From Parafannyhessea umbonata (GTDB taxonomy: Bacteria > Actinomycetota > Coriobacteriia > Coriobacteriales > Atopobiaceae), in NCBI RefSeq assembly GCF_900111255.1, contig NZ_FOGP01000002.1, positions 186,001 through 250,000 on the forward strand: a DNA stretch of 64,000 nucleotides. The letters are read 5' to 3'. The position numbers were made by a program, and so were the translations under genes. Shown piece after piece: positions 38,323-54,178 of the stretch. How positions within the stretch are numbered: position 1 is the stretch's first letter; the number at the start of each line of letters is the position of its first letter. The notes below the pieces were generated by a model that was not told where the DNA came from, did not search any database, and worked only from the letters and a program-made list of their open reading frames with translations.

Positions 38323-39207
38323 CTACAGCGCAAACAATCCCAGGTACATGCCAACGAGCTGCTCGCCGAAGAGCATGCAGAACCAGCAAGCAAGGGCGAT
38401 GGAGGGCCCCCAGGGGAAGGCGTGGGGGTCCACCCGCTCGGGGGCTTCCTCATCCACGGCTTCCGAATCCACGGTCTCCGCGTCGTCGGCCTCGTCGCCC
38501 GAGCCCATCCGCGCGAGCCCGAAGACGATGCCCAACACGCAGGAGACGAACACCACAAGCAGCAGCTGGCTGCCGCCAAAGTAGAGGGCGGCAGCCGCAA
38601 GGAGCTTGACGTCTCCTCCGCCGATACTGTCGCGGCCAAGCACGCGGTCCATAACGAGTGCGAGCGCGATAAGCGCGACCAGAACCCCGACGGCAGTGCC
38701 CACGTAGTAACCAACGGCCGAGACGATGTCAAAGCCCGCGGGAAGGGAGCCAGTCGCAAGGAGGGCCAGCCCGTAGAGGGCGCGCGCGGCGACGGCAACG
38801 GCAACGCAGGAGTTGGGGATGATGCACTCGTCAAGGTCCGTGAGCGAGAGGACAAGAAGCGTACTCGCGAAGACCAGCATCTCGACGGTCTCGAGCGTGA
38901 GGTCGTAGCGCACGACGACGGACAGGTACAGGGCCGCACACAAGAGCTCGGTCAGGGGGTAGCGAGCGGGAATGCGCTCGTGGCAGTAGCGGCACCTCCC
39001 CCTCGTGAAAAGCCAGCTGAGCACCGGCACGAGGTCGCGCGCGGCAAGCACGTGCCCACACGAGATGCAGTGGCTCCTTCCGCGCAGCACGCTCTCACCG
39101 TGCGTGAGCCGCCACGCGAGGCAGTTCAGAAAGCTGCCCATCACCAAGCCGAAAAGGCCGGTAACGAGCAGCGAGTACCCGGTTATGAGAGGAGTCGAGA
39201 AGAGCAT
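38323..39207 (-). CDS. pilD: Prepilin peptidase/N-methyltransferase PilD
   Basis: 294 aa, about eight membrane helices. Cleaves the leader of type IV prepilins and methylates the new N-terminus. The opening FGLVMGSFLNCLAWRL, the paired zinc motifs CISC and CRYC in the cytoplasmic loop, and the two catalytic aspartates in LTDLDE and GGGDVKLL identify A24-family enzymes. The N-methylating loop is intact. The C-terminus has an acidic extension (about residues 225-255). Last gene of the pilM-N-O-D group. Confidence 0.94.
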   Translation of the reverse strand: MLFSTPLITGYSLLVTGLFGLVMGSFLNCLAWRLTHGESVLRGRSHCISCGHVLAARDLVPVLSWLFTRGRCRYCHERIPARYPLTELLCAALYLSVVVRYDLTLETVEMLVFASTLLVLSLTDLDECIIPNSCVAVAVAARALYGLALLATGSLPAGFDIVSAVGYYVGTAVGVLVALIALALVMDRVLGRDSIGGGDVKLLAAAALYFGGSQLLLVVFVSCVLGIVFGLARMGSGDEADDAETVDSEAVDEEAPERVDPHAFPWGPSIALACWFCMLFGEQLVGMYLGLFAL

Positions 39208-39213
39208 GGCGGC

Positions 39214-39876
39214 CTAGCCAAGGGAATTCGAGAGGTCGTTTCCGCCGCTTGCAGACCCCGTCGCCTGGGCCACGTCGGCGGGAACGGAGTCGTTGCCCTT
39301 CTCATAGAACGTCAGATGGACGTCAACCGAGAAGGGCTGCTGCTTTGTGCCCGAGCCCGAGCCGGCGTTGCGGGCGTTACCCGATCGCTGCGCCTCGTTG
39401 TCCGTGATGGTGTACTCGTCCACAGAGCAGGGAAAGCCGCTGTTCACGAGCGCGTCGAGGACGGAGCGCGCCTGCTCGTAGGAGCCGCACTCAAACGAGA
39501 GCTGGACGCCTCGCTGCACGAGTCCCGATTCGTTGACAGCGACGTCCTCGAAGGTCATGTCGTAGTCAGCGGTTCCCGAAAGGACCGCGTTCAGGCTCGC
39601 CATGAGCGCCTGGACGTTGTCGTACTCGGGGACAACGGCAGGAACGGTGCCCTCAGCCTTGTACTTTGCGATTGCGTCCTCCATCTCGTCGATCTTCTTG
39701 ATCTTGAGCGTGTCGGTGACTATCTGGTCGTTCGCGGCATCGATCTGCGACGTCAGGTCGGCAAGCTGCTCCTGCGTCGCGGTGAACACGAACTGGTACC
39801 AGACGACGAGGATGAGAAAGATGGCCAGAAAGACCATCAGAACCTTCTCGCGGCGAGAGAATGTGTACGTAAGCAT
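39214..39876 (-). CDS. pilO: PilO-like pilus alignment protein
   Basis: 220 aa with one N-terminal membrane helix (VLMVFLAIFLILVVWYQFVF), a coiled segment, and a beta-rich domain (VQLSFECGSYEQARSVLDAL, VDVHLTFYEKG) ending in a disordered Ser/Gly tail. This is the layout of PilO, which with PilN links the motor to the cell envelope. Sequence similarity is low, so the call rests on topology and position: directly after pilN (adjacent stop and start) and before pilD. Confidence 0.8.
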   Translation of the reverse strand: MLTYTFSRREKVLMVFLAIFLILVVWYQFVFTATQEQLADLTSQIDAANDQIVTDTLKIKKIDEMEDAIAKYKAEGTVPAVVPEYDNVQALMASLNAVLSGTADYDMTFEDVAVNESGLVQRGVQLSFECGSYEQARSVLDALVNSGFPCSVDEYTITDNEAQRSGNARNAGSGSGTKQQPFSVDVHLTFYEKGNDSVPADVAQATGSASGGNDLSNSLG

Positions 39877-40494
39877 CTACTTCTCCCCCGTTTCGCTCGA
39901 GCTGCCAGATACCTTGAGTCTGACGGTCACGGTCGCGACGACGCCCGTCGACTCGTCGCTCGACTGGGCCGTCGAGACCGAGACGCTGTCGACGCCCTCC
40001 TGCTGGCCAAGCTCCTTGGCGATGGAGCCGACGCTTTCCAGCGAGACGTTGGAGAGCGTGATGGTCAGCTTGGTGTCCTCGAGGGACACCTGGTTGACGG
40101 TGCAGTTGGGCCTGACCTTTGACTCGACCATGTCGAGCACGCCCATTGCGTCCACTCCGGATGAGCTGCTAATGGGGGCATATGCCTCGTACTCGCTCAG
40201 GATGTCGTCGTATTCCTGGACGCGTTGCTGGACAGGCTCGAGATCAGCGCGAACCTTCGCAAGCTCCGACTGCTTCTTGGCGACGTTCGCCAGGGGGCCG
40301 AACACGGCGAAGTTCAGGAAGAGTATGGCCGCGACCGCAATTCCCACGGCAGTCACTATGACGCGACGCCGAACGGCACCGGAGCCCTCCACCTGATAGA
40401 GGTTCATCGTCCTCTTGGTGGGGTACTCCACCTTGTTGCGGCCCCTCTTCGTCAGGAGGTCAAGGCTTATCTTTTTGCCAAGATCAAGCGCCAC
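39877..40494 (-). CDS. pilN: PilN-like pilus alignment protein
   Basis: 205 aa from a GTG at 40494 with GGAGG upstream. A cytoplasmic N-terminus of about 40 residues contains a MNLYQVEG segment, comparable to the PilN motif that docks on PilM, then one helix (VIVTAVGIAVAAILFLNFAVF), a coil and a ferredoxin-like periplasm-side domain (VNQVSLEDTKLTITLSNVS). It overlaps pilM by 11 bp. The usual INLLP form of the PilM-binding motif is not exact here. Confidence 0.82.
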   Translation of the reverse strand: MALDLGKKISLDLLTKRGRNKVEYPTKRTMNLYQVEGSGAVRRRVIVTAVGIAVAAILFLNFAVFGPLANVAKKQSELAKVRADLEPVQQRVQEYDDILSEYEAYAPISSSSGVDAMGVLDMVESKVRPNCTVNQVSLEDTKLTITLSNVSLESVGSIAKELGQQEGVDSVSVSTAQSSDESTGVVATVTVRLKVSGSSSETGEK

Positions 40495-41503
40495 GAGAAG
40501 CCTCCTCTCCAGCCACGAGCGCCGCGTAGGCCAGCGAGCACACGATGTTGTCGGTTCTGGTGCGCACCTCGTCAGGCATGAACGCGTTGACGTACCAGAC
40601 GGGATAGTCGAAGTCCATGCCCATGGCGCTCACGAGCTGCGGGATGGCCGCTCCGCCTCCGGAGAGGTAGATGCCTTTGATGTCCTTGTCGGGGTTGCTG
40701 AAGTTGTAGAAGTTGACGACCTTGCTGACCTCGAACACAAGACGGTCGAATACGGAGCGGCAGCGGTCCGTGTCCAGAACGCCCTCGAAGTTCGAGTCGC
40801 GATAGGTTCCCGCCACGTGGAGGTCGACGTCCCTCATCTCGGCAATGGCAGAGTCGACGTCGACGCATCCCGAGTCGACCACGCGCGATCCCATGAACCG
40901 GTCGTCCTCGAACAGCGAGATGTTCATCTGGTTGTAGCCAATGTCCACCACGACGATGTCGCGGCCGGCGTCCTCGGGATGCTCGACGTTGTGGGCGTGC
41001 ATCAGGTGCATGTACGCCATCGAGGAGGGCGTCACGACGCGAAGCCTAAACCCCGCGTGCTTGAGGATGTCGGCGTAGGTGTCCATGACACTGCGCCTGA
41101 CCGCAGAGGCGTAGAGCTCCATGCGCACCAGCCTGCCATCTTCGTCGCAGACCATGTCATCAACGGCATAGTCGTAGGCGTAGGCGTCCGGGTCCTCGGT
41201 GATAAAGTCGCGGAACTCGTACGGGAGGTTGATCTTGAGCTCGGACGTGGTCATCGGTGGCAGCGAGACATGCCTGAAGTACGAGCGCTGCTCGGTCAGG
41301 ACGATGGCGCAGTCCCTGTCACGGATGCCCTCCTCGACGCGAAGCTTCTTGAGGAATTCCGCCATGACCTGAGGAGAGACGATTCCCTCCTCGTTCATCA
41401 CGTTCTCGGGCAGGCGCCTGGAAAGGAAGCGAAGGCCGCGGTCGCGGAAGGCGACCTTGACGTTGTCCGTCCCTATATCGAATCCAACGAATGAGCGAGC
41501 CAT
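40484..41503 (-). CDS. pilM: PilM-like actin-fold pilus assembly ATPase
   Basis: 339 aa. Cytoplasmic actin/FtsA-like protein that binds PilN. FVGFDIGTDNVKVAF at the N-terminus is the phosphate 1 loop, IVVVDIGYNQMNISLFED the phosphate 2 region, and IYLSGGGAAIPQL the adenosine loop. KINLPYEFRDFI near residue 90 matches the PilM segment after the first subdomain. First gene of pilM-N-O-D, downstream of the major pilin and its terminator. Confidence 0.9.
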   Translation of the reverse strand: MARSFVGFDIGTDNVKVAFRDRGLRFLSRRLPENVMNEEGIVSPQVMAEFLKKLRVEEGIRDRDCAIVLTEQRSYFRHVSLPPMTTSELKINLPYEFRDFITEDPDAYAYDYAVDDMVCDEDGRLVRMELYASAVRRSVMDTYADILKHAGFRLRVVTPSSMAYMHLMHAHNVEHPEDAGRDIVVVDIGYNQMNISLFEDDRFMGSRVVDSGCVDVDSAIAEMRDVDLHVAGTYRDSNFEGVLDTDRCRSVFDRLVFEVSKVVNFYNFSNPDKDIKGIYLSGGGAAIPQLVSAMGMDFDYPVWYVNAFMPDEVRTRTDNIVCSLAYAALVAGEEASRGA

Positions 41504-41716: not shown

Positions 41717-42130
41717 CTAGCCAAACGTGATCTTAATCGAAGACCCGTTGTAGGTGTAGGTGACGCTCTGGTCGGCGTTCCATTTCAGGGGCTGACCGGC
41801 GACGTCCTGATCCTCGGAAGCAGTGCCCTGGGTCTTGAAGTCGCCCTCGCTCTGGGTCTGGGTAACGGTACCGTCTTTCTTCAGGTAGTAGGTGTCACCC
41901 GAAGCAGCATCCTTGTTGCCCGCAACGTCAGCCGTGGCTGCAGCATAGCCGCCACGGATGTTCGCCGCATCGGCAGCGACCTTGGCGTTGTTGAGCTGAG
42001 CCGAGAACACGGGGATCGCGATTGCCACGAGGACAGCGATGATAGCGACGACGATGAGCATCTCCATCAGGGTAAAGCCCTTGTAGCCACGCTTCTTGAG
42101 GTCGTTCTTTGCCATGATAATCTTCTCCAT
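41717..42130 (-). CDS. pilA: Major type IV pilin
   Basis: 137 aa precursor. The leader ends KKRGYKG and is cut before FTLMEMLIVVAIIAVLVAIA, the class III signal with Glu at +5. The globular part is short (about 85 residues), Gly/Ala/Asp-rich, with no Cys pair, similar to small Gram-positive pilins. The ATG at 42130 has GGGAGG six bases upstream; the ATG at 42115 is an alternative that shortens the leader by five. It has its own promoter and terminator, as expected for the most abundant subunit. Confidence 0.93.
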   Translation of the reverse strand: MEKIIMAKNDLKKRGYKGFTLMEMLIVVAIIAVLVAIAIPVFSAQLNNAKVAADAANIRGGYAAATADVAGNKDAASGDTYYLKKDGTVTQTQSEGDFKTQGTASEDQDVAGQPLKWNADQSVTYTYNGSSIKITFG

Positions 42131-42309: not shown

Positions 42310-43527
42310 CTACGAGCTGTAGCTCCCGTAGATGCTGAACATGGGAAGGTAGACCGCAAGCAGGATCATGACCACGATCAGGGCGAGAAACACGATCGTG
42401 GCAGGTTCGAGCAGCGCGACCGCCCGCGCGGTCTGGGTAGCCACTTCGTTGTCGTAGTAGTCCGAGATGACGTCCAGGGTCCTCTCAAGCGTTCCCGTCT
42501 CCTCGCCAACGCCCGTCATCTCGACGGCCAAGTCCGGAAAGGCCTCCGTCTTGGCAAGCGATGCCGCAACGGGCTTGCCTGATTCGACGGCAGGCTCAAT
42601 GCTTGCGAGAGCATGGGCCATGTAGCGGTTGGAAATCGTTCGCGCGGTGGCCTCGACGGCCTGCACGACCGGAAGTCCGGCCGCCATCATGACTGACATC
42701 GTGCCCGCGTACTGTGCCGCCGAGCTCATGACGTTGATCTTTCCCAGGACGGGAAGCCGCGTGCCAAGCCTCGACCACCACAACATGAAGTCTTCGTTGT
42801 AGCGCTTGAGCATCTTGATGGCTACGACGATTCCCACGATGACGCCCAATATGACCGCAAAGTAGCGCGTCATGAAATCTGACACGGCAATCATGACGAG
42901 GGTGGGAAGCGGCAACTCGACGCCCATCGACTCAAAGGTCTTCTTAAAGGTGGGGACGGCCATCACCATGATGACGACCACGACGATGACCGCAACGCCC
43001 ATCACGAAGGAGGGGTAGATCATCGCGCTCTTGACCTTTGAGCGGGACTTCGAGCGCTTGTCGTAGTACGTGGAGAGGCGCGAAAAGACCACGTCGAGGT
43101 TGCCCGAGTTCTCACCGGCGCGCACCGTCTCGATAAAGGTGACGGGAAGTCCACCGGCATGCTTCTCGAAGGCATCAGCCAGGCCATGGCCGGCCGCCAC
43201 CTCGTCCGCGACGTCGAGCAGAATTGCCTTAAGGGCCCCGTCCTCGGTCTGCTCCGCAACCAGCGCGATCGTACGCACAATGGGCAGGCCCGCACGCAAG
43301 ACGATGGCAAACTGGTTGCACATGATGGCCAGCGACTTCTCCTTCGCGCGGCGCGGTCCCAGGCGCAGGTTGATGTCGTGGGAGGGCTGTATCTCCTCGA
43401 TGTCCGAGACGATCAGTCCCTGATCCTTGAGCTGGCTGATTGCCTCGTCCTGGGTGTTGGCCTCCGCCACGCCCTCCTGGACGCCCTCCGACGCGAGACG
43501 CCGTGCCGTGTACTTAAAGGTCTTCAC
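42310..43527 (-). CDS. pilC: Type IV pilus inner-membrane platform protein PilC
   Basis: 405 aa from a GTG at 43527 (AAGGG upstream). Two GspF domains: MCNQFAIVLRAGLPIVRTI...FIETVRAGENSGNLDVVF and SAAQYAGTMSVMMAAGLPVV...MTGVGEETGTLERTLDVI, each with the conserved G-E-x-(S/T)-G block, and three membrane segments. It couples PilB and PilT to pilin assembly. Placed between pilT and pilA. Confidence 0.95.
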   Translation of the reverse strand: MKTFKYTARRLASEGVQEGVAEANTQDEAISQLKDQGLIVSDIEEIQPSHDINLRLGPRRAKEKSLAIMCNQFAIVLRAGLPIVRTIALVAEQTEDGALKAILLDVADEVAAGHGLADAFEKHAGGLPVTFIETVRAGENSGNLDVVFSRLSTYYDKRSKSRSKVKSAMIYPSFVMGVAVIVVVVIMVMAVPTFKKTFESMGVELPLPTLVMIAVSDFMTRYFAVILGVIVGIVVAIKMLKRYNEDFMLWWSRLGTRLPVLGKINVMSSAAQYAGTMSVMMAAGLPVVQAVEATARTISNRYMAHALASIEPAVESGKPVAASLAKTEAFPDLAVEMTGVGEETGTLERTLDVISDYYDNEVATQTARAVALLEPATIVFLALIVVMILLAVYLPMFSIYGSYSS

Positions 43528-43557: not shown

Positions 43558-44607
43558 CTATCTGCCCTGGCGCAAAAACGCATCGGAATCGCGTGCGGCG
43601 CTCGCAGCCGTACGGGCGTCTATCAGGCGGCTGCGCAGGAGCCTCGATATCGAGGCGTCCATGGTCACGTTGCCCAGGGCGGCGGTCGTGGCGATGGAAT
43701 TCTCTATCTGCGGGGTCTTGCCCTCGCGGATGAGGTTGCGGATGGCAGCGTTCACCACCATAACCTCGCAGGCGAGGACGCGGCCGTTGCCTCCCAGGCG
43801 CGGCAGGAGTTGCTGCGAGACGACTGCCTTGAGCGTCATGGACAGCTGCGTGCGGATTTGCCTCTGGCGGTCCTCGGGGAACGACCCAATGAGGCGGTCG
43901 ACGGAGTCGGCGGCGGACTGGGTGTGCAGGGTCGCGAAGACCAGATGGCCGGTCTCCGCGGCAACCAGGGCGGTCTCGATGGTATCGAGGTCGCGCATCT
44001 CACCGACCAGGATAACGTCAGGATCCTCGCGCAGGATGGCGCGAAGGCCCGCCGAGAAGCTTTGCGTGTCTCTCCCCACCTCGCGCTGGGTCACGAGGCC
44101 TCGCGCCGACTCGTACACGTATTCGATGGGGTCTTCGAGCGTGATGATGTGGTCTGGCCGCGTGAGGTTGATCTCGTTGATGATCGACGCGAGCGTGGTC
44201 GACTTTCCCGACCCCGTCTCGCCTGTCACGAGGACGATGCCCTTCTGATACGCTGGGAAGTCCGCGACAACGGGCGGTAGTCCCAGCTCGGACATAGCGG
44301 GGATGCGCTCCGAAAGCAGTCGGAGGGCCATTGCATAGCCACCGTCCACACGATACGCGTTCAGCCTCACACGGACGCCAGCGATGTCGGAGGCGCAGTC
44401 GTACTCGCCCGTATGCGCCAGGTCGTCGAAGCGCCCTCCCAGCGCCGTGCGCGCCAGCCCCTCGCACTCCTCCGCGCTCAGGGGCGCATCGCCGCGGGAC
44501 TCGAGGCTCCCGTGGATACGGAAGCGCAGGAAGGCGCCGGGCGAGAGGTGCACGTCCGAGGCTGAGGCCTCACGCGCAGCCAGTACGATCTCTTCGAGTT
44601 CGTTCAC
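43558..44607 (-). CDS. pilT: Pilus retraction ATPase PilT
   Basis: 349 aa from a GTG at 44607 with GGGGAG upstream. Hexameric ATPase that powers pilin disassembly and twitching. Walker A GETGSGKST at 129-137, Asp box TLEDPIEYV, Walker B ILVGEMRD, His box TLHTQSAADS, and the C-terminal AIRNLIREGK motif, which is specific for PilT rather than PilB and is needed for retraction. Its presence means the pili are probably dynamic. Confidence 0.95.
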   Translation of the reverse strand: MNELEEIVLAAREASASDVHLSPGAFLRFRIHGSLESRGDAPLSAEECEGLARTALGGRFDDLAHTGEYDCASDIAGVRVRLNAYRVDGGYAMALRLLSERIPAMSELGLPPVVADFPAYQKGIVLVTGETGSGKSTTLASIINEINLTRPDHIITLEDPIEYVYESARGLVTQREVGRDTQSFSAGLRAILREDPDVILVGEMRDLDTIETALVAAETGHLVFATLHTQSAADSVDRLIGSFPEDRQRQIRTQLSMTLKAVVSQQLLPRLGGNGRVLACEVMVVNAAIRNLIREGKTPQIENSIATTAALGNVTMDASISRLLRSRLIDARTAASAARDSDAFLRQGR

Positions 44608-44670: not shown

Positions 44671-46377
44671 CTAGTCGGACACGTAGACCGCCCTCAGCAC
44701 CTCGTTGACGGTCGTCTTGCCCGAAAGGACGAGTTCGCGCGCGTTCACGTTGATGGGCTCGAAGTCCGTCCGCCTGACGGCCTCGAGTATCAGGTTGCGG
44801 TCCCCCTCGTGGATGGCCGCGCGCACGTCGCCAGTCACGCGCAGCACCTCGGCCACGACCGTGCGCCCACGATAGCCCGTGCCGTAGCACTCCGGGCAGC
44901 CACGCCCGCGATAGAACTTGATGTCCTCACCCACAACCGCAGGGTCAATGCCAATTGAGCGCATCTCGTCCGCGTCGGGCACGTAAGCCTCCTTGCAGTG
45001 GGGGCAGATGCAGCGGACCAGGCGCTGGCTGACGATTCCGCGAAGTGCCGTTGCCTGCATGTACGGCTCGACGCCGATGTCGCTCAGGCGGTCGAGGGTC
45101 GAGATGGCGTCGTTCGCGTGAATGGTCGAGAGGACCAAGTGCCCCGTGACTGCCGCACGCATGGCGATGTCGGCGGTCTCGGAGTCGCGAATCTCTCCCA
45201 CCGAGATGATGTCGGGGTCCTGTCTCAGTGCAGAGCGCAGACCGTCGGCGAAAGTGGTCCCGGCCTTGTCGTTGACCTGGACCTGGGTGACTCCTTCGAT
45301 GCTGTACTCGACCGGGTCCTCCAGGGTGATGATATTGACTCCCTCGGTGTTGAGGCGACCGATAATGGTGAAGAGGGTCGAGGACTTGCCCGAGCCCGTG
45401 GGGCCAACAAGGAGGATGACCCCCTGCCTATACGAGACGAGCCTGTTGTACTCCTCCAGGTTGTGTCCGTAGAACCCCAGCTCCTCGGCAGTGTCGAGCT
45501 TGTTGTCACGGTCGAGAATACGGATGACGATCTTCTCGCCATGTACCGTGGGAAGGGTCGACACGCGAAGGTCGGCCTCCTTGCCGTGCAGGCTGACGAT
45601 GGCCCTTCCGTCCTGGGGCACGCGCCTCTCGGTCACGTCCATTCCGCACATGACCTTGATTCGGCTCGTGAGAGACTGCTGGAGCTCCTTCGGGATCTGG
45701 AACTCCTCGTGGAGGACTCCGTCGATGCGCATGCGGACGCGCACGCCCCCGTCCTGCGGCTCGACGTGGATGTCGGAGGCCCTGTCGGTGATGCCACGCT
45801 CGATGATGTTGTCCACAAGGCGAATGGACGGCGCCGACGACCCACGGCCGTTGTCGAGATCGTTGGTGTGGAGGCCGAGGCTGTAGGCCCCGTTCACGTC
45901 GGACTGCTCGGCCTCCTGCTGCATCTCTCGGATGGCGCGCTTGGCGCCGACGGTTCCGTACAGAACCGAAATGGCGTGATCGATGCCGCTCTGCGTGGCA
46001 ATCATGGGGACGATGCGCTTGCGCGAGGCGGCGCGTGCCTCCTCGGTCGCGATGAAGTTGAGGGGGTCGGACATGGCAAGGTAAAGCTCGTCGCCGCGCG
46101 TGCGAACCGGAACGATCGAGTTCTTCTTGGCAAGGTTCCTTGGGACGAGCTTGGTCATCTCGGGATCGATCTCGATTTCGGAGAGGTCGATGTAGTCGAT
46201 TCCCAGCTGCACCTGAAGAGCCTCGATGAGCTGGCGACGCGTGATGACGCCGGTCGAGATGAGCGTCTCTCCCAGGCGCTGGTGCGTCTCTTTCTGCGCA
46301 GCGAGCGCCTTCGACAGCTGCTCCTCGTCGATGACGCCCGCGTCAATCAGAAGGTCTCCGAGACGTGTGTACTTCAT
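44671..46377 (-). CDS. pilB: Pilus extension ATPase PilB with an N-terminal MshEN c-di-GMP-binding domain
   Basis: 568 aa, AGGAG upstream of the ATG. The first 57 residues carry two complete copies of the 24-residue MshEN motif (residues 5-28 and 34-57, five-residue spacer): each has RLGxxLI, then GVI, then LxxxL and a final Gln at the consensus spacing. In MshE and related ATPases this binds c-di-GMP. The second N-terminal subdomain runs to about 150. The motor domain has Walker A GPTGSGKSS (325-333), Asp box TLEDPVEYS, Walker B ISVGEIRD, His box IHANDAIST and the zinc site CICPHC...CPEC. It drives pilus extension. Confidence 0.95.
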   Translation of the reverse strand: MKYTRLGDLLIDAGVIDEEQLSKALAAQKETHQRLGETLISTGVITRRQLIEALQVQLGIDYIDLSEIEIDPEMTKLVPRNLAKKNSIVPVRTRGDELYLAMSDPLNFIATEEARAASRKRIVPMIATQSGIDHAISVLYGTVGAKRAIREMQQEAEQSDVNGAYSLGLHTNDLDNGRGSSAPSIRLVDNIIERGITDRASDIHVEPQDGGVRVRMRIDGVLHEEFQIPKELQQSLTSRIKVMCGMDVTERRVPQDGRAIVSLHGKEADLRVSTLPTVHGEKIVIRILDRDNKLDTAEELGFYGHNLEEYNRLVSYRQGVILLVGPTGSGKSSTLFTIIGRLNTEGVNIITLEDPVEYSIEGVTQVQVNDKAGTTFADGLRSALRQDPDIISVGEIRDSETADIAMRAAVTGHLVLSTIHANDAISTLDRLSDIGVEPYMQATALRGIVSQRLVRCICPHCKEAYVPDADEMRSIGIDPAVVGEDIKFYRGRGCPECYGTGYRGRTVVAEVLRVTGDVRAAIHEGDRNLILEAVRRTDFEPINVNARELVLSGKTTVNEVLRAVYVSD

Positions 46378-46437: not shown

Positions 46438-47013
46438 CTACGACGTGGGAATGGGAAGCTCGCGCGTGTAGCTCTCTCCCAGAGGCGTGTAGTAGAAGCG
46501 ATAGGTCCTGCTGAGCGACGGGTCGCTCGCGTCGGTGATCCGGTAGGCCCCCTTGACGCAAACGGACGTGCAAGAGTAGTCGTCCTCGGGATCCGTGGGA
46601 TCGTCGACCAGCTCGATCTTGCAGTTACCGTAGGCGCTCCCGTTGAGCAGGGGGAAGTCGCCCTGGTCGCCCTGCAGGTACAGCTGGCCGTCAATAGAGA
46701 CGAGCCGCACGCCCCCAGCCGCCGAGATGGTCTGACGGTGGAAGACGACCGTGTCGACCTCCTGACCGTCCTCGGCAAGCGTCGAGGTCATGAACCTGAA
46801 CGGGTCGGCCAGCGAGCTGTCCACCGTCCCGGAAAGCATCTGGGCCTGAGAGGCAAACTGCTCGCGTCGGTACACGTCCAGCGCGCCGGACGTGCCAACC
46901 GCGACCACGCTCGTCAGCAGCGTGAGCACGAGGAGTGCGGCCAGAAGCTCGACCAGCGTGAAGCCGGAGCACGACCTTGGGAGACGCCGTGGCGCAATGT
47001 GACGCGCGATCAT
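46438..47013 (-). CDS. Minor pilin (pseudopilin)
   Basis: 191 aa. The leader MIARHIAPRRLPRSCSG is cut before FTLVELLAALLVLTLLTSVV with Glu at +5. The globular domain of about 155 residues has a possible disulfide pair (NCKIEL, YSCTSVCVKG) and is followed by beta strands (YRFYYTPLGES). Minor pilins prime assembly and form the tip complex. Its ATG overlaps the previous gene's stop (ATGA), and it precedes pilB by 60 bp. Confidence 0.85.
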   Translation of the reverse strand: MIARHIAPRRLPRSCSGFTLVELLAALLVLTLLTSVVAVGTSGALDVYRREQFASQAQMLSGTVDSSLADPFRFMTSTLAEDGQEVDTVVFHRQTISAAGGVRLVSIDGQLYLQGDQGDFPLLNGSAYGNCKIELVDDPTDPEDDYSCTSVCVKGAYRITDASDPSLSRTYRFYYTPLGESYTRELPIPTS

Positions 47014-47366
47014 GGCTCCTCCCCCGTGAGTCGATACGACACGATGTCATCCCCGCCGGAGATCAGCATCGTGTGGCTGCGGCCGTCGACCTGCACCGTC
47101 GCTCGGTCGCTCCCCCGGCTTCCCACGTAGCGGTCCGACTCGGCCGCCTGGCGCTGCTCCCACAGGTCACCCTCGCGGTCCTCCGCCTGCCTGCTGAGCC
47201 TTGCGGCGGTCGCCGATGCCGCAAGGAGCATGACGGACGCGAGAGTGCAGATCAAGATGGCAACCAGAGTCTCCGCAAGGGTTTCTCCCCGCTCGCCCCT
47301 TCCGACGCGGCATCGCGGTGCGTGGTGGACAGGAGGCCCGCCCTGAGTTTTGCGTTGAAGTCGCAT
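47010..47366 (-). CDS. Small minor pilin with Glu at the +1 position
   Basis: 118 aa from the ATG at 47366 (GGAGGTGGC upstream; a longer reading to 47384 is not supported). The leader ends RGERG, followed by ETLAETLVAILICTLASVML: Gly at -1 and Glu at +5 as in prepilins, but +1 is Glu instead of Phe or Met. The remainder is short, with a helix (LSRQAEDREGDLWEQRQAAE) and a small strand region. Stop and start codons overlap with both neighbours, so it belongs to the minor-pilin set, comparable to PilV/GspI. Confidence 0.78.
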   Translation of the reverse strand: MRLQRKTQGGPPVHHAPRCRVGRGERGETLAETLVAILICTLASVMLLAASATAARLSRQAEDREGDLWEQRQAAESDRYVGSRGSDRATVQVDGRSHTMLISGGDDIVSYRLTGEEP

Positions 47367-48439
47367 CACGCCACCTCCACCCACTGGACGCCGAAGTTCC
47401 TCTTTCCGGTCAGCTGCGAGTCATCGTCGTCGCCGCCAACCGTCTTGGCGCGGCGCTGGCACGAATACGTGTCGTCGGCGGGCATCGCGGTCAGGCTGCC
47501 CTCGTAGTTGCCGCTACCAAGCTTGACTGCCATGTCCCAGCCATAGTAGTCGTAGCGCAGCGTAATGACGATGATGGTTATGCCCGTGTGGGTGGTGCAT
47601 ACGGGAACGTAGTACTTGCCCTGGTAGTAAACCATGCAGATGTAGTGACTCGAGTCGGACAGGACCATGAGCTCGCTGTTGGCCGTTGCCTTCCAGGTGC
47701 ATTTTGCCCACTGGTTCGTATACCAGCTGTCCTGCGTGGTCCCCCAGACGTTGCACTGGGCCTGAAGCTCCGTAGAGAGCCTCATGCCAGCAACGGGTCC
47801 GGTGTACTCCACGGGAATCTCAGTCGAATTGGGTCCCCAGTGGATGACGAGCCCGCCCTCGGTCGTACTTCCCTCGAGCATCGCGGGCACGGTGGTCGAG
47901 AGCGTGTAGGCGTAGTCGCCGCCATCCGCAAGCTCGGCCTTGATGGTGATGTAGTACTGCTCGGCGCCCTCGGTCTTCATGCTATAGGTGAGCTTGACCT
48001 CGGGGACCGTGGCCCCCTCCACCGTGAAAGAGTCGATCTTGGTGACCATCTCCTGCGGAGAAGTGCTTCCCGACGCAATCGACCGGGCAGCCTGGGTCGC
48101 CCAGTTCGCCAGGGCCGATCCGTCAGAGGTCGTCCCGGGATCAAGCTGGTCGGCAGGCTTCGCGCGCGTGAGGATGAGGTTGGCGATGGAGCCGCGCTCG
48201 CAGGCAAGGGAGCGCGCGGTCTGGATGCCCGAGGAGACCGCAAAGTATGCCTGCTGCTCCTTGGTCGTCTTCTTGCTCCGCTCGACGCTCACAGAGGACG
48301 AGGCGATGACCACGGTGGCAACCATGGTGCAGACCAAGAGGAAGACCAGGGCGACGATGAAGGAGGCACCGCGGTCGGCGCGCAGGAGCGCGCGGGCTCC
48401 AGCGAACCTGCCTTTGCACTTCTCGCATGCGTACGTCAT
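47366..48439 (-). CDS. PilX-like pilus assembly protein
   Basis: 357 aa from the ATG at 48439 with GGGGGCGAG upstream. A Cys-containing N-terminus (YACEKCKGRF) precedes DRGASFIVALVFLLVCTMVATVV, the pattern of PilX_N-type proteins, which lack the canonical +5 Glu context but assemble with minor pilins. The outer domain is Thr/Ser/Tyr-rich with many aromatic residues (YYQGKYYVPVCTTHTG). It overlaps the next gene by ATGA and follows the GLUG pilin by 10 bp. The family call is moderate; membership of the minor-pilin operon is clear. Confidence 0.72.
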   Translation of the reverse strand: MTYACEKCKGRFAGARALLRADRGASFIVALVFLLVCTMVATVVIASSSVSVERSKKTTKEQQAYFAVSSGIQTARSLACERGSIANLILTRAKPADQLDPGTTSDGSALANWATQAARSIASGSTSPQEMVTKIDSFTVEGATVPEVKLTYSMKTEGAEQYYITIKAELADGGDYAYTLSTTVPAMLEGSTTEGGLVIHWGPNSTEIPVEYTGPVAGMRLSTELQAQCNVWGTTQDSWYTNQWAKCTWKATANSELMVLSDSSHYICMVYYQGKYYVPVCTTHTGITIIVITLRYDYYGWDMAVKLGSGNYEGSLTAMPADDTYSCQRRAKTVGGDDDDSQLTGKRNFGVQWVEVA

Positions 48440-48449
48440 CGCTCGCCCC

Positions 48450-51400
48450 CTATCCCACGATCGGCCAGTCGCCATAGTACGGTAGCAGAGACCCGTTCGC
48501 CCAGACTCCGCCGAACGGGAAGGCGCGACCGACGAGCGAGGAGGAATAGGGATGGGTGTCCGCGACCGAGAGCCTCGGCTGCGTCTGCGCGGCCATCTGG
48601 TCGTAGCTCAGACGGCACGAGAGCTCCCAGGAGTTGTTGTGGTCGTTGTAGCCCGAGTTCCACACGTAGTGGACGTTGGCACCCGGCTGGTAGGCATGCC
48701 CGCTGCCGACGCCGCCAGCAAGCGCGCCCACGTGGTTCCAGCCCTGGGACATGCCCAGGACCGTGCAGTTCTGGATGCCCCAGTCGTTCTGAAGCTCGTC
48801 GTAGCCGGCGATGCCGCCCACGTAGTCGGCGCCCGAGGTGTTGACGGCCGCGATGTTCTGGTTCCAGTAGCCGCCCTTACGGTAGCCCGCGAGGCCTCCC
48901 ACGAATGACCAACCGCCCACGTCGCCGGTGGCGTAGCAGTTGTCGATGCCGCCGTCGTTGTGGTAGCCCACGAGTCCGCCGAAGCAGTTGCCGTTGTTGT
49001 CCCCGTCGCGGACGTAGACCGCGGCAAAGCTTCCGCTGATGTTCTGCGAGTCGCGGTAGCCCACGAGGCCGCCGACGCTGTTGCCGCTGGAGGTCACGCG
49101 TGTGTACTCGATCGTGCCGCCGGAGCCGGGGTTCTGGTGCACGGAGCACGCGTTTATGGCGCCCGAGGACCAGCCCGAGAGGCCGCCCACGTTATCGGCG
49201 CCGCCGACGACGTCGACCGCCGAGGTGACGCCGTTGGCGGAGCCGGCCTGGCGGCCGAACGCGCCACCCACGTTGTAGCCAGAGCCTCGCACGACCTCGC
49301 GGCCATCATACGAGATGCCCGAGCGGCAGGCGACACGAGAGTTGCTGAACGAGCCGGACGAGAGGTCACCCACGAGGCCGCCAACGTTGCTGGCGCCCGA
49401 GACCGAGGCCAGAACGACGTCGCCCGTGCCCTCACCCGGGGTCGAGCCCGCAAGGCCGCCTACGTTGTCCCCCTGGCCGGCCACGGTGACCGCCGTGTTG
49501 CTGGCCGTGTTGCCCACCGTGGTGTTGGAGATGGCGCTGTAGCTGCGCACCTCGCCTGTGACGCCGCCGACGTGGCTGGCGCCCGAGACGTTGGCCATCG
49601 AGGCGCAGCCGTTGATGCCCTGGGAGTTGCTGCCCGCAAGGCCACCGACGCAGTTGCCGGTGCCCACGACGCTCACCACCCTGGACGCGTCCTTCTCGCC
49701 CACCATGGAGCCGTTGATAGAGCCGTTGTCGCCCAGGTAGCCGCAGAGGCCGCCAACGTAGTTGGCGCCCGAGACGTCGGCGAGGGAGCGGTTGCCATCG
49801 AGCGAGGACCCGTTGCGACCGGCTATGCCTCCGACGCAGTCGCCCGTGCCCGTCACGGTGACGTGCCAGCTGCGGCCGAAGTCGTTCTTGTAGTAGCCGA
49901 CATTGCAGTTCTCGAGCGAGACGCTGTTGGGATTGTCGCCCACCAAACCGCCGACGTAGCCCGCGCCCAAGACGTTGACCGCGCTCGAGCAGTTCTCGAT
50001 GTTGTTCCAGCCCTCGATTCTTCCCACGAGGCCGCCCACGCAGTCGCCCGTGCCCGAGACCTGGCCCTTGCCGTCAGCGGTCTCGAATACGTGGCAGTCG
50101 CGCACGGAGCCGGTCCTGTGCACGCCCACGAGCGTTCCGACGTCGCCCTTGCCGCTGACGACGGGGTCCTCGAAGTTGAGGGAGTCGACCGTGCAGAAGA
50201 GGTCACCGAACAGGCCGGTCTCGTTCGAGTCGCTGGAGATCCTGAAGTTCTTGAGCACGTGGCCGTTGCCGTTGATGACGTTGGAAGGCGTCGCCTCCAT
50301 CTCCTTCGAGGCGGAGATGGGCGAGAAGGACGCCAGCGGGTTGAAGCCGTTTCCGCTCGATTCGTTCCTACTCTGGATAGAGACGCACTCGGGATGCTGC
50401 TCCCACGTCGTCCCGTCGAAATCGATGTCGCCCGTCACCTCGGCATCCGTATAGCGCGCGAAGCCATAGGTGAACGCGTCGAGGTTGTCGATGTTGGCCG
50501 AGGCGCAGGCGGCCCGCAGGTCGAGGTTGCGCAGGTGGCGCAGGGTCGAGACGCTGACCTTGGGCGCCTCGGAGTTCGACGTGTCCCTGCTCTCGTAGAG
50601 GCTGTTCGTCTGGAACTCCTGCGTACGGATGGGCTGCGAGGGGTCGTCCTGGCCCACGTCGCAGAAGAGCGAGACGGTCACCGTGATGTCGGATCCGGGC
50701 ATGACGTCCTTCACGATGTCCGAGAACCTCAGGCCGTCGCGCATACTGTCCAGGATGAAGTCGAGCTCGCCGTCGCCGTTGGAGAGCGCGATGCGCGTGC
50801 TGGGGTCAGCGCTGACGGGCGAGTATGAGCGCGACCAGACCTCCTTGGCACCCCAGTTGCGGCACGACTCTCCCTCGACGGTGACGTCGATGCGCAGCGA
50901 GGCCAGCCTCTGGCTGTCGCCCGCGACCTTGCCGAGGCCCTTGGTCTTGACGCTTGCGTAAAGCTCCTCGGAGTTGACCAGCGAGAGGTCAAGGTCCGAG
51001 AAGAGCTCGCGCTGCTCCTCCTCGGCGGTACGCGCGCGCTTGGTGAGCTTTGACCCGCCGTAGTACCCGATCAGATAGGGCGAGCGTTCCTCTCGGGAGC
51101 GCAGGCCGCTGATGGACGAGTAGTCGACGTCTCCCCCGCTGGGGCATTTCGCATCGCCCTCCCAATAGTAGACGGAGTAGACCTCGCCGGTCGCGGGGCT
51201 TACCTCGACGACGAAGCTCCCCGAAAGCAGTGCAGACGTGATGGGGTTGGCCTCGCTCGTGACGAGATAGGCCGTCGTCTCCTCATCGGAGGACGAGAGC
51301 TGGAATAGCCCGTAGTCCTCCCACGAGGCGGACTTGTCGGGGTAGTCCGCGGGCATCGCCACCACCTTGCTGCCAGGCTTCGACGAGAGGCTGCCCGCGA

Positions 51401-51626
51401 GGATGTCCGCCTGTCCGGTGGACGAGAGCGCCGAGAGGCGGCTCTGCACGGCATTGTAGACAACCTGGGCCTCGGCATCCAGCTGCATCATGCGCAGGCT
51501 GCGCTGGATCGCCATGAGGTTGGGTATCGCGATGGCCATCATGACGGCGAGTATCGAGACGGCAGCCATCATCTCGGCCATGGTGAAGCCGAGCGTCGCC
51601 CTTGTCCTGTCCTTGCGCCGCGTCAT
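48450..51626 (-). CDS. Giant minor pilin with a GLUG-repeat adhesin-like domain (1058 aa)
   Basis: The N-terminus is a true type III signal: MTRRKDRTRATLG, cut before FTMAEMMAAVSILAVMMAIA with Glu at +5. Residues 50-390 form a mixed pseudopilin-like and linker region with few cysteines. Residues 496-971 contain 16 copies of the GLUG core VGGLxG, spaced alternately about 36 and 26 residues; GLUG repeats are otherwise known from M26 IgA-peptidase-type and large surface proteins and are expected to form a beta-solenoid. The C-terminal 85 residues are aromatic-rich (YVWNSGYNDHNNSWEL, LLPYYGDWPIVG). Ordinary pilins are 120-200 aa. It heads the minor-pilin operon and is probably exposed at the pilus tip as an adhesin; that role is inferred. 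Confidence 0.9.
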   Translation of the reverse strand: MTRRKDRTRATLGFTMAEMMAAVSILAVMMAIAIPNLMAIQRSLRMMQLDAEAQVVYNAVQSRLSALSSTGQADILAGSLSSKPGSKVVAMPADYPDKSASWEDYGLFQLSSSDEETTAYLVTSEANPITSALLSGSFVVEVSPATGEVYSVYYWEGDAKCPSGGDVDYSSISGLRSREERSPYLIGYYGGSKLTKRARTAEEEQRELFSDLDLSLVNSEELYASVKTKGLGKVAGDSQRLASLRIDVTVEGESCRNWGAKEVWSRSYSPVSADPSTRIALSNGDGELDFILDSMRDGLRFSDIVKDVMPGSDITVTVSLFCDVGQDDPSQPIRTQEFQTNSLYESRDTSNSEAPKVSVSTLRHLRNLDLRAACASANIDNLDAFTYGFARYTDAEVTGDIDFDGTTWEQHPECVSIQSRNESSGNGFNPLASFSPISASKEMEATPSNVINGNGHVLKNFRISSDSNETGLFGDLFCTVDSLNFEDPVVSGKGDVGTLVGVHRTGSVRDCHVFETADGKGQVSGTGDCVGGLVGRIEGWNNIENCSSAVNVLGAGYVGGLVGDNPNSVSLENCNVGYYKNDFGRSWHVTVTGTGDCVGGIAGRNGSSLDGNRSLADVSGANYVGGLCGYLGDNGSINGSMVGEKDASRVVSVVGTGNCVGGLAGSNSQGINGCASMANVSGASHVGGVTGEVRSYSAISNTTVGNTASNTAVTVAGQGDNVGGLAGSTPGEGTGDVVLASVSGASNVGGLVGDLSSGSFSNSRVACRSGISYDGREVVRGSGYNVGGAFGRQAGSANGVTSAVDVVGGADNVGGLSGWSSGAINACSVHQNPGSGGTIEYTRVTSSGNSVGGLVGYRDSQNISGSFAAVYVRDGDNNGNCFGGLVGYHNDGGIDNCYATGDVGGWSFVGGLAGYRKGGYWNQNIAAVNTSGADYVGGIAGYDELQNDWGIQNCTVLGMSQGWNHVGALAGGVGSGHAYQPGANVHYVWNSGYNDHNNSWELSCRLSYDQMAAQTQPRLSVADTHPYSSSLVGRAFPFGGVWANGSLLPYYGDWPIVG
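48714..50141 (-). repeat. GLUG repeat region, 16 units
   Basis: Encodes residues 496-971 of the giant minor pilin. The VGGLxG cores begin at residues 496, 530, 558, 598, 624, 660, 686, 722, 748, 786, 813, 851, 882, 909, 936 and 966. Units of two kinds alternate: one with VxGxGDCVGG and one with DVSGAxxVGG, giving a super-repeat of about 62 residues through most of the array. Confidence 0.88.
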
Positions 51627-51773: not shown

Positions 51774-52961
51774 TCAGTCGAGGCGGCGCTCGACGCCCAG
51801 CGACTTGTACAGGAGCCCCTTTCGCTCCATCAACATCTGGTCCGCGCGCGCGAACGCCCCGGCCGGGGTCTCGTCCGAGGCGACGATCCTCGTGTACCCG
51901 CAGGTGGCGTGGAGCGCCACGGGAAGCTCCCCCCGAAGCACCTGGACGTTGAGGACGGCGTGGAAGTACTTCTCGACCGCCTCGGGACCGCCCTCGCGAA
52001 GAGAGGCGTCGTCAATCACGAGCAAGAACTCGTCCCCTCCCCAGCGCGCGGCAAAGCCGCCGAAGCGGCCGACCGTCTGACGCGCCGCGGTGGCCGCGCA
52101 GCACAGCGCGACGTCGCCCACGGCATGGCCGTACACGTCGTTCACCTGTTTGAAGCGGTCGATATCGAACAGGAAGAGGCTTTGCTCGACGCCGTCGTCG
52201 CGAGCGAACAGCTGGGCCAGGTACTTGTCGGCCCGCCGGCGGTTGTTGAGGCCGGTCAGGGGGTCGTTGAGGACAAGGCGCTCCTGCATCGTGGCGAAGC
52301 CTATGACGAACGAGCACAGCAGGGCGAGCGGATAGGCGGGCGTGCCGGGAAAGACGGAGTCGAACATGGCCGCGACCAGGGGCGGGACGGCAAAGCGCAG
52401 GACCACGGCAAAGAGGGCGCGCCTCTCCTGGAGGGCGTCGGTCGCCAGCCCCCAGATCGCGCGGACGGAAAGCACCAGAGCGTAGGCGCTGCCCAGGAGC
52501 ATGGCGAGCCAGAACCAGCGGCCGCGCGAATAGGCGCCGCTGGAGTCGAGCGTGAACACGAGTCCGGTCGACATGGAGGACAGGACCAGGACGATCAGGG
52601 CAAGAAGAGGCACCGCGAGCAGGGCGATCGAGGAAGCGCGCCCGATGCGCACGGAGCTCAGGCGCGTCGTGAGGCCGACGGCCCACCAGAAGTTGATGAG
52701 GCAAATCAGAACGAGGATGACGCAGGTGAGAAGGGAGTACAAAACGGGCTCGGCCGTCCACTTCCCCGCATAGATGAGATTCCAGCAGGTGTCCAGGAGA
52801 CAGTACGCGACGTAGCAGAGGAGCATCGTGCGGACCGATCTGACCTCGAACATGGAGCCCATGTCACTCGACACGTTCACGGCCATGAACAGTGCGCCCA
52901 GGGCGCAGAAGACCTCGGTCGATACCAATGCGGCAAGGTGTACGGAGGAGACGTCCATCAC
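51774..52961 (-). CDS. Membrane-bound GGDEF diguanylate cyclase
   Basis: 395 aa. Six or seven hydrophobic helices (residues 1-215) form a membrane sensor module, then a GGDEF domain: LNDPLTGLNNRRRADKYL, FLFDIDRFKQVNDVYGHAVGD and ARWGGDEFLL. The catalytic residues are intact; the I-site has Arg at -9 but Gly at -6, so RxxD is lost. The start is the GTG at 52961 or the ATG at 52958, both overlapping the stop of the upstream paralogue. It lies upstream of the minor-pilin operon in the same orientation, 147 bp away. Confidence 0.9.
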   Translation of the reverse strand: MMDVSSVHLAALVSTEVFCALGALFMAVNVSSDMGSMFEVRSVRTMLLCYVAYCLLDTCWNLIYAGKWTAEPVLYSLLTCVILVLICLINFWWAVGLTTRLSSVRIGRASSIALLAVPLLALIVLVLSSMSTGLVFTLDSSGAYSRGRWFWLAMLLGSAYALVLSVRAIWGLATDALQERRALFAVVLRFAVPPLVAAMFDSVFPGTPAYPLALLCSFVIGFATMQERLVLNDPLTGLNNRRRADKYLAQLFARDDGVEQSLFLFDIDRFKQVNDVYGHAVGDVALCCAATAARQTVGRFGGFAARWGGDEFLLVIDDASLREGGPEAVEKYFHAVLNVQVLRGELPVALHATCGYTRIVASDETPAGAFARADQMLMERKGLLYKSLGVERRLD

Positions 52962-54178
52962 TTCTCGCCCTCCTTGCTGAAGGCGCTCCTCTTGCGAAAG
53001 AGCATCTTGCGGTCATAAAGGACCTTGTCGGCACGGGCAACCGCCTCGTCGAGGGAGGTGCGGGAATCGCATACGTCGGTGCTGCCCATGCAAAGCGTGA
53101 GCGTGAAATCGAGCCCGTCGCGCTCGCAGGCCGCTTTGAGCGCATCGTTCGCCAGACTCTCGGCCACCACGGTCCCCGCGGTCGGCCCCGTTCGGATCAG
53201 GACGAACTCGTCGCCACCCCAGCGGGCGACGAGACCCCCCACGTCTTCGACGACCATCCTGAGGGCGGAGGCGACCGAAAGGAGGGCCTTGTCCCCCGCA
53301 GCGTAGCCGAACTCGTCGTTGATCCTCTTGAAGTGGTTGAGGTCGCAGATGTACACGTGGATGGGATTGTCGACCGACACCTCCAACGAGAGGCTCTCGA
53401 AGTAGTCGTCCGCACGACTTCGGTTATTGAGTCCCGTCAGGGCGTCGAGGTAGATGTCCGCTCTCTGGCGCGAGAGAAAAGCCATGACGACGGCCCAGAG
53501 CATGCCCAGAGACCCAATGCCGGACACGCCGGCCACGACGAGGGAGAAGCCCGCGACGAGCGGCCCCAGGCCGCAGAGCATGAGGTTGAGGCAGCGGAGG
53601 GAGCGGATGCGGGAGCGCACCCTCGCGATGCACGCCAGGATGCTCGCAAACGAGACGGTGACGAAGAGGAGCGAGGGGGCCAGGACCAGCATGTAGTAGG
53701 GACCGTGCTGGAAGAGCCCAGCTTCGTCGACATAGAACACGGCCCCCGTCCACCAAGAGTCCACGAGTGCCACGACGCAGGACAAAAGCGCGAGGTGGCA
53801 GGCGATGCGGACCGCCCTTGACTGCAGCAGGCGCGACTCGAGCATCACCTCGACGTAGACGAACCATCGATAGTACATGTACGCCAATAGGAAGAGGCTG
53901 AGCGCAGAGACGGCGAAAGCGACCGAGGCGGGAACGGGAACGAGCGCGTATCCGGTAAAGAACCACAGGAAGTCCACTACGAGGTAGGAGAGGTAGGCGC
54001 ACGCCACGCAGCGAAGCGCCTCTCCGTCCGGACTATGCCCCAAATCGGACGACATGCGGACGAGCAAAGCCAGGCTCAAGGCAAGGCACGTGACGTCAGT
54101 CAGCAGGTATGTGAGGGTGTAGGCCAGCGTGACGATCTCCCCCAAGGCCGCGTTGGTATACAGGGCCAACAGTAGCAT
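52958..54178 (-). CDS. Membrane-bound GGDEF diguanylate cyclase, paralogue of the adjacent gene
   Basis: 406 aa with the same layout as its neighbour: about seven helices (residues 1-230), then LDALTGLNNRSRADDYF, ICDLNHFKRINDEFGYAAGDKALL and ARWGGDEFVLIRTG. The metal-binding loop reads CDLNHFKRIND rather than FDIDxFKxxND, so the first Asp is kept. No RxxD I-site. The closeness in layout and sequence suggests a tandem duplication. The upstream region carries GGTACC-centred repeats that could be regulatory. The signal sensed by the membrane part is unknown. Confidence 0.9.
   Translation of the reverse strand: MLLLALYTNAALGEIVTLAYTLTYLLTDVTCLALSLALLVRMSSDLGHSPDGEALRCVACAYLSYLVVDFLWFFTGYALVPVPASVAFAVSALSLFLLAYMYYRWFVYVEVMLESRLLQSRAVRIACHLALLSCVVALVDSWWTGAVFYVDEAGLFQHGPYYMLVLAPSLLFVTVSFASILACIARVRSRIRSLRCLNLMLCGLGPLVAGFSLVVAGVSGIGSLGMLWAVVMAFLSRQRADIYLDALTGLNNRSRADDYFESLSLEVSVDNPIHVYICDLNHFKRINDEFGYAAGDKALLSVASALRMVVEDVGGLVARWGGDEFVLIRTGPTAGTVVAESLANDALKAACERDGLDFTLTLCMGSTDVCDSRTSLDEAVARADKVLYDRKMLFRKRSAFSKEGEK

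Follow-up and report, generated by a model that had tools for sequence, protein, structure and literature searches.

The window, the whole stretch of 64,000 nucleotides analysed here, carries on its minus strand a compact and complete type IVa pilus locus headed by the gene for a large pilin with GLUG repeats. The genes follow one another in the order large pilin, K-, I- and J-like minor pilins, PilB, PilT, PilC, major pilin, PilM, PilN-like protein, PilO-like protein and PilD. Upstream of pilB, the genes for the four minor pilins follow one another head to tail, overlapping or lying apart by no more than tens of bases. Across the whole genome, strong matches to the N-terminal methylation motif are confined to this locus. 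The features, with the evidence for each, are:

51588..51626, minus strand: prepilin leader of the large pilin, residues 1-13 (TIGR02532 above cut-off; PF07963 22.3 bits; cleavage expected after Gly13)
50544..51587, minus strand: pilin carrier module, residues 14-361 (hydrophobic alpha1, then a putative head; kept in two families)
50160..50543, minus strand: start of the GLUG domain, residues 362-489 (conserved RHLxNL and DIDfdg motifs)
48714..50159, minus strand: 16 GLUG motifs, residues 490-971, predicted beta-solenoid (motif count, PF07581, AF2, VIA-align)
48450..48713, minus strand: aromatic C-terminal cap, residues 972-1058, plus the stop codon (LPYYGDWP end; YGDWP-type cap in nearly all close homologues)
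47366..48475, minus strand: K-like minor pilin, no Glu at +5 (GspK NF037980 E 6.5e-5, well under cut-off; PilX_N E 0.011)
47010..47384, minus strand: I-like minor pilin (GETLAETLVAI leader; weak N_methyl and XpsI matches; adjoins in homologous loci)
46438..47013, minus strand: J-like minor pilin (PF07963 26.5 bits; TIGR02532; adjoins in homologous loci)
44671..46377, minus strand: PilB extension ATPase with MshEN domain (T2SSE E 7.5e-124; MshEN E 8.2e-21)
43558..44607, minus strand: PilT retraction ATPase (T2SSE E 1.6e-45; orthologues adjoin PilB in relatives)
42310..43527, minus strand: PilC platform protein (T2SSF E 6.7e-58)
41717..42130, minus strand: major pilin (PF07963 33.8 bits; TIGR02532 31.1 bits)
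40484..41503, minus strand: PilM (TIGR01175 121 bits, just under the cut-off of 133; PilM_2 E 4e-19)
39877..40494, minus strand: PilN-like protein (T2SSM-like E 6.4e-4; position)
39214..39876, minus strand: PilO-like protein (T2SSM-like E 1.3e-5; position)
38323..39207, minus strand: PilD prepilin peptidase (A24_N_bact E 7.9e-31; Peptidase_A24 E 4.2e-13)

The large pilin is a protein of 1058 aa in one uninterrupted frame (48450-51626, minus strand), and it begins with the canonical prepilin leader that had been noted in it: MTRRKDRTRATLG, with FTMAE following the expected cleavage site, which places Gly13 at -1, Phe at +1 and Glu at +5. The match to TIGR02532 reaches 17.2 bits, above the cut-off of 16.3, and that to PF07963 reaches 22.3 bits against a cut-off of 21.2 in the whole-genome scan and 16.6 bits in a plain hmmscan. 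Gly13 (-1) and Glu18 (+5) are invariant across 16 aligned homologues. The hydropathy maximum lies at residues 16-40, and the A1 profile, which covers residues 1-470 of the large pilin family, matches solved pilins over alpha1 alone. A full-length AF2 run from the single sequence gave a pLDDT of 33, and a true pilin beta-sheet head is therefore putative. The sequence scan found no LPxTG and no further transmembrane-like stretch beyond alpha1; for want of an LPxTG, a sortase-anchored surface protein was rejected. A search with a DxSxS pattern for a vWA-type MIDAS gave two chance-like matches.

The one-frame fusion of leader and repeats is kept in two other genomes, G046 (52% identity over residues 4-1056) and G045, and relatives of the same genus have the layout at 52-53% identity. 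Because the layout is common to these relatives, the large pilin is not a fusion error, and the concern that an assembly or frameshift artefact had joined two genes can be set aside.

Within the repeat region, the Pfam family Glug (PF07581) matches at 24.5 bits (cut-off 20.5). A strict regular expression finds 15 GLUG motifs, whereas 1000 shuffled versions of the protein average 0.17 and never exceed 3; if the degenerate VGTLVG at residue 496 is admitted the count becomes exactly 16 (residues 496-966), the number given in the original prediction. In the RHLxNL motif at the start of the domain, R363, H364, L365, N367 and L368 are invariant across homologues. The C-terminus is rich in aromatic residues, as had also been noted (16% F/W/Y vs 7% in the GLUG part), and closes with the cap LPYYGDWP, which is conserved in homologues.

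The GLUG segment is predicted to form a beta-solenoid like those of the M26 IgA1 proteases, in agreement with the fold expected at the outset. Specifically, an AF2 model of residues 838-990, for which GLUG proteins of viral contigs and a further segment of the large pilin served as alignment rows, has an all-beta repeat pattern with a pLDDT of 72 and a pTM of 0.74. VIA-align superimposes this model on 3n6z (Bacteroides ovatus BACOVA_03286) with Z 14.9 and rmsd 2.4 over 145 residues at 25% identity, and on 7uvl and 7uvk (both Gemella haemolysans) with Z 13.4 and 13.2; by structural alignment the solenoid fold is the same, at Z 13-15, and the next unrelated fold follows at Z 7.1. Foldseek of the solenoid model against the PDB gave no significant match, the best sensible one being 7uvk at E 2.1; the fold is assigned from VIA-align.

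By InterPro code, the large pilin has the domain pair IPR012902-IPR011493, which we take to be a pilin leader plus GLUG, IPR011493 presumably being the GLUG entry. Modular pilins with this architecture are listed in a 2021 survey, which reads it as an M26 peptidase and names it in passing, the main text giving no organism, locus, size or family (PMC8179133). A pilus-displayed M26-like peptidase, as suggested there, would fit the occurrence of GLUG repeats in M26 IgA1 proteases and the match of the modelled solenoid to theirs. However, Pfam finds no M26 catalytic domain in the large pilin, HExxH is absent from it and from 39 other members (40 checked), and the part of 7uvk that is matched, residues 1101-1288, is its solenoid. 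The part shared with the IgA1 proteases, which do have a protease domain, is therefore the solenoid and not the enzyme; we regard a peptidase as scarcely credible, and this identity as largely refuted.

The placement of the gene in a complete type IVa pilus locus bears out its description as a minor pilin. For the K-like gene next to it, the ATG at 48439 is the likelier start. The I- and J-like assignments have weaker profile matches than the K-like protein has to GspK, itself below the cut-off, and the large pilin is assigned to the H position of an HIJK minor-pilin set by elimination only. No PilY1-type partner was found, as anticipated: PF05567, the C-terminal propeller of PilC/PilY1, has no match in the own genome at E 0.001 and none among the Pfam matches of the large pilin, a search of 296 genomes of the phylum, run without a positive control, returned no protein of the family, and monoderms are stated to lack PilC/PilY1 (PMC9934059).

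Just upstream of the large pilin lie two tandem genes for GGDEF diguanylate cyclases (51774-54178, minus strand). PilB has an MshEN domain, which is known to bind c-di-GMP, and together these features point to possible control of the pilus by c-di-GMP. In G020, too, an open frame of 2184 codons directly beside the large pilin (L037:12450-19001(-)) has a match to GGDEF, again linking a diguanylate cyclase to such a locus.

The large pilin is not a one-off but belongs to a family conserved in two bacterial families. With incomplete assemblies included in the counts, a relative is found in 20 of 140 genomes of the same family (the own genome among them) and PilB in 26 of the 140. Six genomes have PilB and no detected relative; in four of these PilB lies on contigs of 6-9 kb. 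The PilB of G060 is divergent (42% identity). The carrier also turns up in a second family of the same order, where the A1 profile gives E-values of 8e-104 to 7e-17. Across 396 genomes of the phylum, strong carrier matches occur in these two families only. A scan of genome contigs with the large pilin returned only a short Brachyspira pilin leader, and viral-contig scans gave no homologous pilin, only generic pilin leaders and unrelated GLUG proteins.

Nearly every such locus in the two families pairs K-, I- and J-like pilins with one large pilin. In the first family these neighbours are recognisable at 17 of 17 other loci, though at L038 the I-like match, being on the other strand, is perhaps spurious; in the second, all three adjoin the large pilin directly in 17 of the 20 loci examined, the exceptions being L103, L109 and L113. 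Gene order varies, with the large pilin first in the own locus and last in genus g30, and in several g30 genomes the minor-pilin set and pilB are on different contigs, but the set itself stays together. Its persistence despite changes in order argues for a functional unit, most simply a four-subunit priming complex.

Some loci depart from this pattern. At L103:7705-9471(-) the pilin frame has just 589 aa and K and I are about 7 kb distant; in this genome (G167) the large pilin may be interrupted or divided. The large pilins at L109:5859-9959(-) and L113:2189-6313(+) have 10-11 GLUG-like motifs with an incomplete minor-pilin set, in pilus loci that are divergent (PilB only 425-435 bits). A second copy of the carrier module in G019 runs off the contig end (L036:13908-14681(+)), and this genome may encode two of these pilins, unless the assembly has duplicated one.

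Beyond the carrier, the family varies greatly in length. Complete members span 758 to 4609 aa, and 18 long members (the own protein and 17 others) have from 4 to 21 strict GLUG motifs. The YGDWP-type cap is clear in all of these except G064 and G076 (QYGDWP in the alignment); there are two cap motifs in G020 and three each in L097 and L098, consistent with duplicated solenoid-cap modules. Many members of the second family, of 1,300-1,430 aa, have 1-3 GLUG-like motifs and no named domain. At the other extreme, three g30 genomes encode giants: 4232 aa in G064 and in G076 (L044:2012-14707(-) and L054:6031-18726(-)), and 4609 aa in G074 (L053:821-14647(+)), all in frames closed by stops and free of N. 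The first two are 99.9% identical and therefore not independent, whereas the G074 protein has 53% and 35% identity to that of G064 over long stretches. DUF7601 and SpaA domains lie beyond the GLUG part in the giants, and a Flg_new domain is present in L097. For comparison, the most extreme multi-domain modular pilin in the 2021 survey has 860 residues (PMC8179133). In the window, residues 256-291 of the K-like pilin resemble the C-terminal end of the L053 pilin, residues 4523-4560 (39% over 38 aa, E 5e-4); the two may have a small domain in common.

The wide variation in the number and length of solenoids, the tandem solenoid-cap modules, and long members that end in other domains (e.g., SpaA, DUF7601 and Flg_new) are all as expected if the solenoid mainly served as a passive stalk or spacer that brings the tip through a thick wall, or capped the pilus structurally, and were not itself the adhesin. 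We consider this unlikely for the protein studied here, however: nothing lies beyond its cap that could be another binding module, and in the nearest relative the GLUG part is conserved at 50%, close to the 56% of the pilin module.

The large pilin is one of the modular pilins, a widespread class already described, with more than 1,200 proteins in 264 architectures (Raynaud 2021; PMC8179133). It has the class III signal peptide of such proteins, with Gly at -1, Glu at +5 and a hydrophobic alpha1, it has an extra non-pilus domain in the same chain (PF07581 and the solenoid model), and it is encoded with type IV pilus machinery. The original prediction that no well-described pilin has this layout thus holds in part: modular pilins had been described and the survey lists the IPR012902-IPR011493 pair, but the lineage-restricted family, with its fixed K/I/J linkage and its giant members, is new, and is not described in the literature searched, where nothing relevant on GLUG together with a pilin was found.

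Among known systems, S. sanguinis PilB/PilC are alike in that their leader and alpha1 are fused to a large module at the C-terminus and their type IVa pilus is that of a monoderm lacking PilY1, and the minor pilins of S. sanguinis are proposed to cap the pilus (PMC8179133, PMC9934059). The modules differ, being vWA and lectin there and a GLUG beta-solenoid of about 600 residues here, as do the neighbours, PilA there and a K/I/J-like set here. PilC/PilY1 of diderm type IVa pili is alike in its proposed role as a tip-displayed effector, but it is a beta-propeller and not a pilin. Thermus thermophilus ComZ, for which there is a crystal structure (PMC6561018), is another minor pilin with a large beta-solenoid and is argued to fit the pilus tip only; its solenoid is inserted in the pilin domain and is not GLUG, it lacks Glu at +5, and it binds DNA.

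The example of ComZ, a tip-type minor pilin whose large solenoid binds DNA (PMC6561018), raises the question of whether the large pilin might act as a receptor that takes up DNA in natural transformation, the more so as the own genome encodes a ComEC-family protein and PilT. ComEC is near-universal, however, and both the pilin part and the GLUG part are acidic (pI 4.5 and 4.7; the checked homologues are acidic too), a mild argument against a DNA ligand, although charge alone is not decisive. Moreover, the ComZ solenoid sits within the pilin sheet, whereas that of the large pilin follows at the C-terminus, beginning in the sequence after the whole N-terminal module with its putative head. We give a DNA receptor only a slim chance.

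The explanation we favour, and think probable, is that the large pilin is a modular type IVa minor pilin and a member of the priming complex, with its solenoid at the tip as an adhesive arm or stalk. The leader, the locus, the K/I/J linkage and the conserved fusion, as read from the genomes, are the ground on which this model stands. PilD would cleave the large pilin after Gly13, a proposal supported by the canonical leader and by PilD in the same locus. The hydrophobic alpha1 would then pack with the K-, I- and J-like pilins into a priming complex that initiates the pilus and comes to lie at its tip, from which the GLUG beta-solenoid, closed by the YGDWP cap, would project as a rigid adhesive arm or stalk. 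As PilB would extend and PilT retract the pilus, the arm could bind a surface, a cell or a glycan and be reeled in. Processing by PilD, the position at the tip and adhesion are suggested by analogy: the steps from processing onward draw on S. sanguinis PilB/PilC and on the steric arguments made for ComZ (PMC8179133, PMC9934059, PMC6561018). Against the model stand the lack of a recognised ligand-binding site in the large pilin, the weak profile matches behind the K-, I- and J-like assignments, the insignificant Foldseek result, the merely putative pilin head, and the chance that a solenoid serves as spacer and not as adhesin.

More tentatively, one subunit of the four-part priming complex may have become a fixed effector slot in two families of one order, doing the job that falls to PilY1 in diderms. 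Its arm would have gained solenoid-cap modules and surface domains until the pilins reached giant sizes of 4,200-4,600 aa, with the carrier and the K/I/J partners kept throughout. The protein in the window would be a mid-sized member of the series; we rate this reading at somewhat less than even odds.

Monoderm type IV pili lack PilY1, and it is chiefly in S. sanguinis that their presentation of adhesins is understood in detail. The actinobacterial pili that have been studied are all type IVc, according to a 2019 review (PMC6916266), and if the source class is the one proposed earlier, the locus would represent an unstudied type IVa pilus of that phylum. With an effector arm that ranges in nature from about 400 to more than 4,000 residues, the family amounts to a natural experiment: the series allows testing of the size of module that a pilus tip carries through membrane and wall, and is also a means to test what a GLUG solenoid binds.
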